DNA from: Halobacteriovorax sp. GB3
GTDB lineage: Bacteria; Bdellovibrionota; Bacteriovoracia; Bacteriovoracales; Bacteriovoracaceae
Direction of reading: 5' to 3'
Assembly: GCF_028649655.1 (NCBI RefSeq)
Contig: NZ_JAQSLN010000003.1
Span: forward strand, 620,001-684,000
DNA length: 64,000 nt
Below, in pieces: positions 42,967 through 45,005 of the stretch. Below the pieces are notes generated by a model that did not search any database, was not told where the DNA came from, and worked only from the letters and a program-made list of their open reading frames with translations. The position numbers were made by a program, and so were the translations under genes. The number at the start of each line of letters is the position of its first letter. The first letter of the stretch is position 1.

Positions 42967-43539
42967 TTAAAGGTATTTTTTAAGTTCAGTTTCGCTAGAG
43001 TCTTGAACTTTTGCGTGCAGAGAACCACCGTGAGAATCCATTGTCACAACAACAGGAAAGTCTTCTACCGTTAGTTCCCAAATGGCCTCAGGAGAACCGA
43101 GGTCTTCCCAATAAACATTATCAACAGACTTAATTTTTTCAGCGAGAACCTGAGCAGCTCCACCGATTGCATGAAAATATACCGCCCCATAGTCTTTACA
43201 ACCTTGAAGAGTTTTTGGTCCCATGCCACCTTTTCCAATGACACCAACAATTCCGTAATCTCTCATGACTTCCCATTGATAAGGCTCTTCACGAATTGAA
43301 GTTGTTGGACCAGCGGCCTTTACTTCAAAACCACCTTCTTTATCACCGATCACAACTGGACCACAGTGATAAATAATTTGATTTGATAGATCGACTGGAG
43401 GCTTAACACCTTCATGAAGTCTCTTATGAACAGCATCTCTACCTGTAAAGAGTTTACCTGAAATGAGAACCATATCTCCAACACGTAGGTCGAGAATCTC
43501 TTCTTTTTTAAATGGAAATTGTAATTTCTTCATCTTCAA
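42967..43539 (-). CDS. Class I fumarate hydratase, beta subunit
   Basis: 190-residue partner of the alpha subunit; together they interconvert fumarate and malate (or the related tartrate reaction). The family blocks are visible: Gly-Asp-Met-Val-Leu-Ile-Ser-Gly, Arg-Asp-Ala-Val-His, Ala-Gly-Pro-Thr-Thr-Ser-Ile-Arg, Gly-Lys-Gly-Gly-Met-Gly and Met-Asp-Ser-His-Gly. It lies three bases after the alpha gene. Fumarase is preferred over tartrate dehydratase because succinate dehydrogenase is also here, but the sequence alone does not exclude the latter. Confidence 0.85.
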   Translation of the reverse strand: MKMKKLQFPFKKEEILDLRVGDMVLISGKLFTGRDAVHKRLHEGVKPPVDLSNQIIYHCGPVVIGDKEGGFEVKAAGPTTSIREEPYQWEVMRDYGIVGVIGKGGMGPKTLQGCKDYGAVYFHAIGGAAQVLAEKIKSVDNVYWEDLGSPEAIWELTVEDFPVVVTMDSHGGSLHAKVQDSSETELKKYL

Positions 43540-43542
43540 TCC

Positions 43543-44814
43543 TTAGTATAACCAGTTGCTAATTTTGTTTTGCTTATTAAGAGTTACACCTTGTCTACGG
43601 AAGGCCCAACACATATAAGAAACTGAAACAAAGAATGAAGCCGGAAGACGGTTAAGTGTACCGATCTTACATCCAAGAAGAGTAGTTTTTCCACCAAATC
43701 CCATTGGACCAATTCCAAGTTTATTTGCTGTTTCTACAATATCTTCTTCAAGTTTCTTTAGCTCCTCTACTGGGTTTTGATCATCAAGTTTTCTAAGAAG
43801 TTGTTCTTTAGAAAATACATAGCCCGCACCACGGTCTCCACCAATAGTGACACCAAGAACACCTGGACCACATCCCTTTCCTTGTGCTTTTACAATGCAA
43901 TCTAAAATGGCCTTTCTAACACCATCTAAATCACGACCAGCACCTAAATCAGTGTTAGGAAGAGAATATTGAGCACCAACATTTTCACATCCACCACCTT
44001 TTAACATGAGTTTAACTTCAACAGTATTTTTACTGTGCTCGTGAAAGTGGATATCAGGATGACCTGGACCAATATTCATTGTTTCGTTCTTCCCAGTTAG
44101 TGAGTCAACTGAGTTTTGACGGAGGTATCCAACTTCAGTGGCCTTAACAACGGCTTTATGGACAACCTTAGTGAATGCAGTTTGATTAAATCCTACAGGA
44201 TGACTTACGTAGAAAAGAATTGTCCCAGTATCCTGACAAAGAGGTTGAGATTTTTTCTTAGCAAGTTCTATGTTTGCTTTGATAATATTCATTGCATATT
44301 CAGCTGTTGTATTTTTTTCTTCTCTATCAAGAGCTTCAAGAACTACTTTTTGAACATCGCTTGGAATCTCTGCAGAAGTTGAACGAATGAGTTCTAAGAG
44401 AGAATCAAAAAGGTTTTTACTATCATTTGATTTAGCGACAACTTTTTTCGTCGCTACTTTTTTTGCAACTTTTTTCGTCGCTACTTTTTTTGCAACTTTT
44501 TTCTTTGCTACTTTCTTAGCAACTTTTTTCTTTGCTACTTTCTTAGCAACTTTTTTCTTCGCTACTTTTTTAGTTGCTTTTTTCTTTGCTACTTTCTTAG
44601 CAACTTTTTTCTTTGCTACTTTTTTAGTTGCTTTTTTCTTTGCTACTTTTTTAGTTGCTTTTTTCTTCGCTACTTTCTTAGTAACTTTCTTCTTTGCTAC
44701 TTTTTTAGTTGCTTTTTTCTTTGCTACTTTCTTAGCAACTTTCTTCTTTGCAGTAGATTTTGCTGTTTTCTTCTTCGTTACTGTCTTCTTTTTCGTGGCC
44801 TTTTTCTTTGCCAT
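43543..44814 (-). CDS. Class I fumarate hydratase, alpha subunit, with histone-like lysine-rich N-terminal tail
   Basis: 423 residues. Residues about 129-423 form a complete [4Fe-4S] fumarase alpha subunit: C193 in Pro-Leu-Cys-Gln-Asp-Thr-Gly, C276 in Gly-Gly-Gly-Cys-Glu-Asn-Val-Gly and C382 in Leu-Leu-Gly-Cys-Lys. Residues 1-128 are almost only Lys, Ala, Val and Thr, with about eleven copies of a nine-residue unit (Val-Ala-Lys-Lys-Lys-Ala/Val-Thr/Ala-Lys-Lys), like the tails of histone H1-type bacterial proteins. The domain alone would be of normal length, so the tail is an addition. A perfect AGGAGG before the ATG at 44814 makes the tail part of the protein. Nucleic acid binding or self-assembly is inference. 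Confidence 0.9.
   Translation of the reverse strand: MAKKKATKKKTVTKKKTAKSTAKKKVAKKVAKKKATKKVAKKKVTKKVAKKKATKKVAKKKATKKVAKKKVAKKVAKKKATKKVAKKKVAKKVAKKKVAKKVAKKKVAKKVATKKVAKKVATKKVVAKSNDSKNLFDSLLELIRSTSAEIPSDVQKVVLEALDREEKNTTAEYAMNIIKANIELAKKKSQPLCQDTGTILFYVSHPVGFNQTAFTKVVHKAVVKATEVGYLRQNSVDSLTGKNETMNIGPGHPDIHFHEHSKNTVEVKLMLKGGGCENVGAQYSLPNTDLGAGRDLDGVRKAILDCIVKAQGKGCGPGVLGVTIGGDRGAGYVFSKEQLLRKLDDQNPVEELKKLEEDIVETANKLGIGPMGFGGKTTLLGCKIGTLNRLPASFFVSVSYMCWAFRRQGVTLNKQNKISNWLY
44431..44740 (-). repeat. About eleven imperfect 27-bp tandem repeats encoding the lysine-rich tail
   Basis: The coding strand repeats a 27-base unit that encodes nine residues. Copies differ mainly by Ala/Thr/Val exchanges and synonymous changes. 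The number could vary by slippage between strains. Confidence 0.85.
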
Positions 44815-45005
44815 GAAAACCTCCTGGATAGGAAGAGCACTCAATAAAAATTAAGCGTCAATTCCACTAATATTGGTAAACAAAATATTTAATTTGATCA
44901 GAAAAATTATAACAGGCCATTATTTCATTGTCAGGCAAAAATATGAGTGAAAAAGGTCCTCTTCTCAGTTGCCGGAGGACACTTTATTCGCTATTTTTAG
45001 GGGCT

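Follow-up and report, generated by a model that had tools for sequence, protein, structure and literature searches.

Lysine-rich regions in prokaryotic proteins have been associated with DNA binding (PMC6821194). The lysine repeats of the histone H1-like proteins AlgP and PhaF are thought to bind the nucleoid and to link granules to it, those of AlgP being built of KPAA units (PMC9239181). In the topoisomerase I of actinobacteria, a catalytic enzyme bears lysine repeats that are said to make it processive on DNA (PMC7398561). In eukaryotes and in Bacillus subtilis, published work assigns fumarase itself an additional role at damaged DNA, to which the enzyme moves as needed; the B. subtilis fumarase, a class II enzyme, accumulates on DNA once damage has occurred and is needed for the damage response (PMC5711358).

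The gene described here encodes the alpha subunit of a class I fumarase in Halobacteriovorax sp. GB3 and lies in a 64,000-nucleotide stretch of DNA that is referred to below as the window (Table 1). Its lysine-rich N-terminal tail resembles the H1-like tails of Hc2, AlgP and PhaF in being a long, low-complexity lysine arm with alanine, valine and threonine, but its units are of the KKKVAKKVA type rather than the KPAA type, and it stands at the N-terminus of a metabolic enzyme. The actinobacterial topoisomerase I offers a parallel for the joining of such repeats to an enzyme, although that protein acts on DNA itself and carries its tail at the C-terminus. B. subtilis likewise provides a fumarase on bacterial DNA, a role that is only predicted for the window's protein; whereas the B. 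subtilis enzyme is of class II and is recruited after damage, with no tail mentioned in the excerpted part of the report (PMC5711358), the window's enzyme is of class I and has its tail built in. Enzyme and tail are each of known kinds. A literature search of open-licence PMC papers found neither their union throughout a bacterial family nor any family-wide tail on a TCA-cycle enzyme.

Table 1. Features of the fumarase locus and of two other tailed genes. Positions are those of the window unless a locus (L) or a contig of the window's assembly (G000) is named.
Feature	Position	Strand	Basis
Fumarase alpha subunit CDS, class I, 423 aa including tail	43543..44814	(-)	ORF and sequence; PF05681
Lysine-rich N-terminal tail, residues 1-129	44428..44814	(-)	translation; net charge +67
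Tandem array within the tail: 27-base (9-codon) unit, 11.6 copies	44439..44751	(-)	Tandem Repeats Finder
Fumarase alpha domain PF05681, residues 139-410	43585..44400	(-)	hmmscan; predicted fold matches 7xky_A
Shine-Dalgarno AGGAGG, 5 bases 5' of the ATG	44820..44825	(-)	sequence
Fumarase beta subunit PF05683, start set at ATG, without tail	42967..43533	(-)	hmmscan
AMP nucleosidase with tail	L081:1035-2117 (G000:C4, near 350034-351134)		profile match
Bacterial histone-fold protein with tail	L070:1742-2023 (G000:C1:622241-622522)		PDB matches

The initial annotation of this DNA placed the gene at 43543-44814, which is the extent of the open reading frame, with its ATG at 44814-44812 and its stop codon at 43545-43543 on the minus strand. 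The lysine-rich repeat tail that it described ahead of the fumarase domain is confirmed as well, over 129 residues, and the copies of the 27-base unit show 88% matches with indels absent. The tail contains 67 lysines and no aspartate or glutamate, giving a net charge computed from the translation of +67, versus +3 for the alpha domain and -4 for the beta subunit. The tail is no mere chance enrichment: among the 58 non-overlapping open reading frames of at least 100 aa in the window, that of the alpha subunit has the highest N-terminal lysine plus arginine fraction (0.44; the next is 0.28 and the median 0.17) and the most lysines in any 30 residues (18, followed by 13). A strong ribosome site, a perfect AGGAGG, precedes the tail, which is read in frame with the domain, and the frame remains open for ten codons 5' of the ATG, up to a TTG. 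No in-frame ATG, GTG or TTG occurs between Met1 and Met175, and because Met175 is the next in-frame start codon and lies 36 residues inside the PF05681 domain, a start 3' of the repeats would cost that many residues of the domain. The claim of the initial annotation that the ribosome site places the tail in the protein is upheld by this arrangement. Its description of the tail as histone-like holds for the H1-like composition and not for membership of a histone-like family: the Hc2 model (NF038052, NCBIfam) weakly matches tail residues 3-127 with 21.2 bits against a cut-off of 135, and assignment to Hc2 was rejected.

The enzymatic part of the protein is ordinary. The alpha gene is the single PF05681 gene in a profile search of the genome, with 238.2 bits in that search and 236.6 bits in hmmscan (cut-off 25), and residues 139-410 cover profile positions 4-269 of 270. 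A beta subunit gene lies in the same operon (PF05683, 191.5 bits by hmmscan, cut-off 22.2), so that the "complete class I fumarase domain" noted at the outset is a complete alpha subunit and not a complete enzyme, the beta subunit being the next gene. The subfamily model TIGR00722, common to fumarate and tartrate enzymes, is matched with 209.2 bits, above its cut-off of 100.65, and the alpha subunit falls below the cut-offs of both the fumarate hydratase equivalog (214.1 bits; cut-off 276) and the tartrate dehydratase equivalog (161.6 bits; cut-off 365). The protein is thus assigned by family to the class I two-subunit fumarases, with fumarase activity, as against tartrate dehydratase activity, a prediction. 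Among solved structures the predicted alpha model best matches 7xky_A (E 1.3e-25), with Leishmania class I fumarases next. The two-subunit fumarase of Methanocaldococcus jannaschii (PDB 7xky) shares the alpha fold, the three aligned cysteines and a separate beta subunit, but its match begins at residue 134 of the window's protein, and it has no counterpart of the 129-residue tail. Cysteines C193, C315 and C402 align with cysteines of 7xky and are invariant in 34 aligned rows; we take cysteines of this type to be the holders of the [4Fe-4S] cluster in class I fumarase. The domain is modeled with pLDDT of 80-97 in most 10-residue blocks, falling to 59-69 at residues 231-250 and 271-280. AlphaFold draws most of the tail as one helix of medium confidence from residue 4 to 109, with pLDDT below 50 at residues 103-128; we set this helix aside as evidence, as tracts rich in lysine and alanine may be modeled as helical without being so.

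The nearest named matches of the alpha subunit belong to Bacteriovoracaceae and Halobacteriovoraceae. The Bacteriovoracaceae, to which the window's genome belongs, include predators of other bacteria, and PF05681 is present in 107 of the 129 genomes of the family as delimited in the genome collection searched; 104 alpha genes were read, the copies in G085, G088 and G140 being fragments that were left out. A gene was scored as tailed if it began with at least 20 aa containing at least 30% lysine plus arginine, thresholds that were chosen after the first 27 N-termini and 80 named ones had been viewed. By this measure 87 of the 104 genes have a tail, and the presence of such tails in related fumarases, for which the initial annotation proposed a search, is established. 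The tails have a median length of 50 aa and a range of 20-154 aa, where scripted lengths are about three residues too long (132 rather than 129 for the window) and where some genes, such as that of G097 beside its named copy L089, appear to have shorter tails than they do, a later start having been picked; in G083 the script misplaced the start. Three of the 87 genes are cut by a contig end, leaving 84 uncut. The other 17 comprise 14 genes without a long tail, two of a different alpha type in long frames (G026 and G002, 542 and 560 aa), and one, in G113, in which Ns mask a visibly lysine-rich start. The beta gene lies directly 3' of the alpha gene in all 100 family loci with enough flank, and no comparable tail was seen in the beta N-termini read (up to 40 residues), the richest, that of G030, having nine lysines that are not repeat-like. 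Being confined to the alpha subunit, the tail does not characterize the operon as a whole, and since most relatives keep it, it probably serves a function.

What is kept is composition alone: the family tails are not confidently alignable, and both sequence and length change fast. Their 87 representatives, 4915 residues in all, contain 2336 lysines and 14 aspartates or glutamates. Among 4828 tail codons, 2334 encode lysine (1432 AAA, 902 AAG) versus four for glutamate, while the 23925 domain codons of the same genes include 2048 for lysine and 1352 for glutamate. Because AAR to GAR is a single transition, the same type of change as AAA to AAG, glutamate is being eliminated from the tails. Within the window's gene the 11 full repeat units differ pairwise at 122, 38 and 30 places at codon positions 3, 2 and 1, respectively; differences mostly at the third position, together with the scarcity of glutamate, favor selection on the protein over a DNA repeat. 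These patterns argue for selection on positive tail charge across the family. There is a weak tendency for genes of lower GC3 to have longer tails (rho -0.28, p 0.004, 98 genes), so that base composition may contribute to tail growth.

A quick tree of 128 domain sequences, many of whose forks are weak, requires at least eight changes of tail state, a figure that pools gains and losses. Of the 87 tailed family genes, 83 fall together in a single group, whose 89 family rows also include five genes without a long tail and the masked gene of G113. Close relatives without a tail had been named initially as grounds for doubting it: the five rows nearest the window's gene are all tailed, and yet a long tail is absent from 14 of the 104 genes of the family. 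Outside the family, a 'Candidatus Eisenbacteria' MAG has a fumarase alpha gene (L113:1492-1914) that begins with a tail of about 140 residues; this tail is rich in lysine, arginine, alanine and proline, includes a few acidic residues, and is preceded by an SD-like AGGAGA. Because this gene sits among outgroup rows on a long branch, its tail was probably gained separately, as far as such a tree can tell; its genome holds one further, weak match to this tail (E 0.02). Candidate tailed fumarases in Verrucomicrobia (L101, L122, L125 and L127), which arose from long query coverage, were rejected: their N-termini are open frame upstream of a short start and have no lysine tail.

Similar tails occur on other proteins, so that the fumarase is one of a set; DNA proteins figure prominently in it, alongside others. 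A codon scan of the window's genome for KKxxKKxxKK-type sequences found 82 places, versus 21 in a reversed control; 17 stretches around scan matches were read, about ten scattered single matches being left out, and they contain 11 open reading frames besides the fumarase with at least 14 lysines in 30 residues. Family and structure searches identified a topoisomerase I with an N-terminal lysine-rich tail, a GyrB/ParE-like subunit with a C-terminal tail, and a ParC-like neighbor of the latter with a short C-terminal lysine stretch. Lysine-rich N-terminal tails are found also on an AMP nucleosidase (307 bits, cut-off 264) and on a bacterial histone matching structures 9qt0, 8cmp and 8fvx; eukaryotic histones likewise have lysine-rich N-terminal tails. 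Initiation factor IF-2, a TonB-like protein, two phasin-like proteins and a 182-residue H1-like protein are lysine-rich and were named by reading alone. The two phasin-like proteins, the H1-like protein and the protein of locus L080 gave no Pfam or NCBIfam match. This last protein (L080:1156-2265; G000:C3:1287000-1291500), to which no family is assigned, begins with a long arm rich in lysine that leads into an acidic stretch and then a conserved C-terminal domain, and a relative of it was found in locus L342 of genome G003.

Some of these tails extend through the family. Topoisomerase I has a lysine-rich N-terminal tail in 19 of the 21 family rows read, a count that excludes six family genomes without a locus; of eight rows from outside the family, five have hardly any N-terminal lysine and the other three show a weak stretch. 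The AMP nucleosidase was read at 30 loci and judged by eye, family genomes with weak matches alone being left out, and a lysine-rich start, in some cases short, was seen in 20 of 24 family copies and in none of six from outside. Histone relatives are more variable: the protein was seen at 15 of 17 relatives' loci read, about six with a long tail and the rest with a short one or none.

We propose that the tail is a selected polybasic tether on nucleoid DNA that holds fumarase there, and we give this reading a probability of about 0.5. An ordinary two-subunit [4Fe-4S] fumarase would have an alpha subunit beginning with a flexible, polylysine-type arm, whose 67 positive charges would bind a polyanion independently of sequence; the polyanion would most likely be chromosomal DNA, perhaps with RNA on it, so that the enzyme would be held on the nucleoid. 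The tail would stay on the mature protein and bind DNA in the cell, and the benefit might lie in turning over fumarate and malate close to DNA, or in keeping a store of the enzyme at that site. The nucleoid is the best guess because the same kind of tail is found on the topoisomerase I and the histone of this genome. The tail is not proof of a role at DNA, because AMP nucleosidase and proteins without known role are also tailed, and the 14 family fumarase genes that work without a long tail speak against the tether. That fumarase has retained, in most members of a bacterial family, a built-in tail like those of the family's topoisomerase I and histone suggests a simple route by which bacteria may place metabolic enzymes by charge alone. 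A broader proposal, that a shared and interchangeable lysine-tail signal places Bacteriovoracaceae proteins on chromatin, with fumarase and AMP nucleosidase enrolled, is more tentative and on balance doubtful; if it is true, production or consumption of fumarate, malate and adenine would take place at DNA, and the fumarase would be a bacterial counterpart of nuclear fumarase with its targeting built into the protein.

The charge of the tail would equally suit polyphosphate, RNA or membranes, and other readings must be weighed against the nucleoid tether. Fumarase may be parked on polyphosphate granules or in ribosome-rich regions through binding of the tail to polyphosphate or RNA, as AlgP, a protein whose lysine repeats are H1-like, is located on the polyphosphate granules of Pseudomonas aeruginosa (PMC9239181) and IF-2, a translation factor, is among the lysine-rich proteins named here by reading; we consider this unlikely, given that the tailed proteins nameable by family or structure searches are mostly DNA proteins. 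Charge alone would also let the tail clamp the enzyme electrostatically to a membrane or to an acidic protein partner, for instance to bring fumarase close to succinate dehydrogenase, and the beta subunit is mildly acidic, but a site for a partner should conserve some sequence, whereas the tails keep only their composition, and this reading seems to us decidedly unlikely.

Two further readings deny the tail a function or a place in the protein. It may be a by-product, a short lysine-rich start that replication slippage lengthened and that the cell tolerates, acidic changes being purged as generally harmful. The 27-base tandem array, the spread of tail lengths and their unalignable sequence, the weak relation of length to GC3 and the 14 genes without a long tail all fit such an origin; four glutamate against 2334 lysine codons and the presence of tails on 87 of 104 genes are hard to obtain from tolerance alone, the beta subunit has no such start, and we regard the by-product as very unlikely. 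It is extremely unlikely that translation begins 3' of the repeats and the tail is absent from the protein. This idea draws on the 67 of 84 uncut tailed genes with an in-frame ATG, GTG or TTG in the tail or the first 15 domain residues, ten of them having such a codon close to where the domain begins together with an SD match of four bases, but an internal start is rejected for the window's gene, which has no start codon before Met175 and has the perfect AGGAGG 5' of its tail; such a start, which the initial annotation had listed as counter-evidence, is thus improbable from the sequence. SD matches of at least four bases precede the chosen starts in 82 of the 84 uncut tailed genes, a biased figure, as the script preferred starts with an SD.

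Other lysine-rich repeats were encountered in the course of these searches. Genome G003 has four further repeat clusters, belonging to a SWIB-domain protein, an H1-like protein, the L080 relative mentioned above, and a protein whose second half is acidic; the first of these (L340; G003:C1:2075800-2078600) is a SWIB/MDM2-domain protein (PF02201, E 2.8e-28) whose N-terminal 150 residues or so form a lysine-rich arm. In the window's own assembly, contigs end inside KKxxKK-type repeats at G000:C1:1-42 and G000:C2:327950-327980, and because two contigs do so, repeats of this type may break assemblies and leave a tailed gene split at contig ends.
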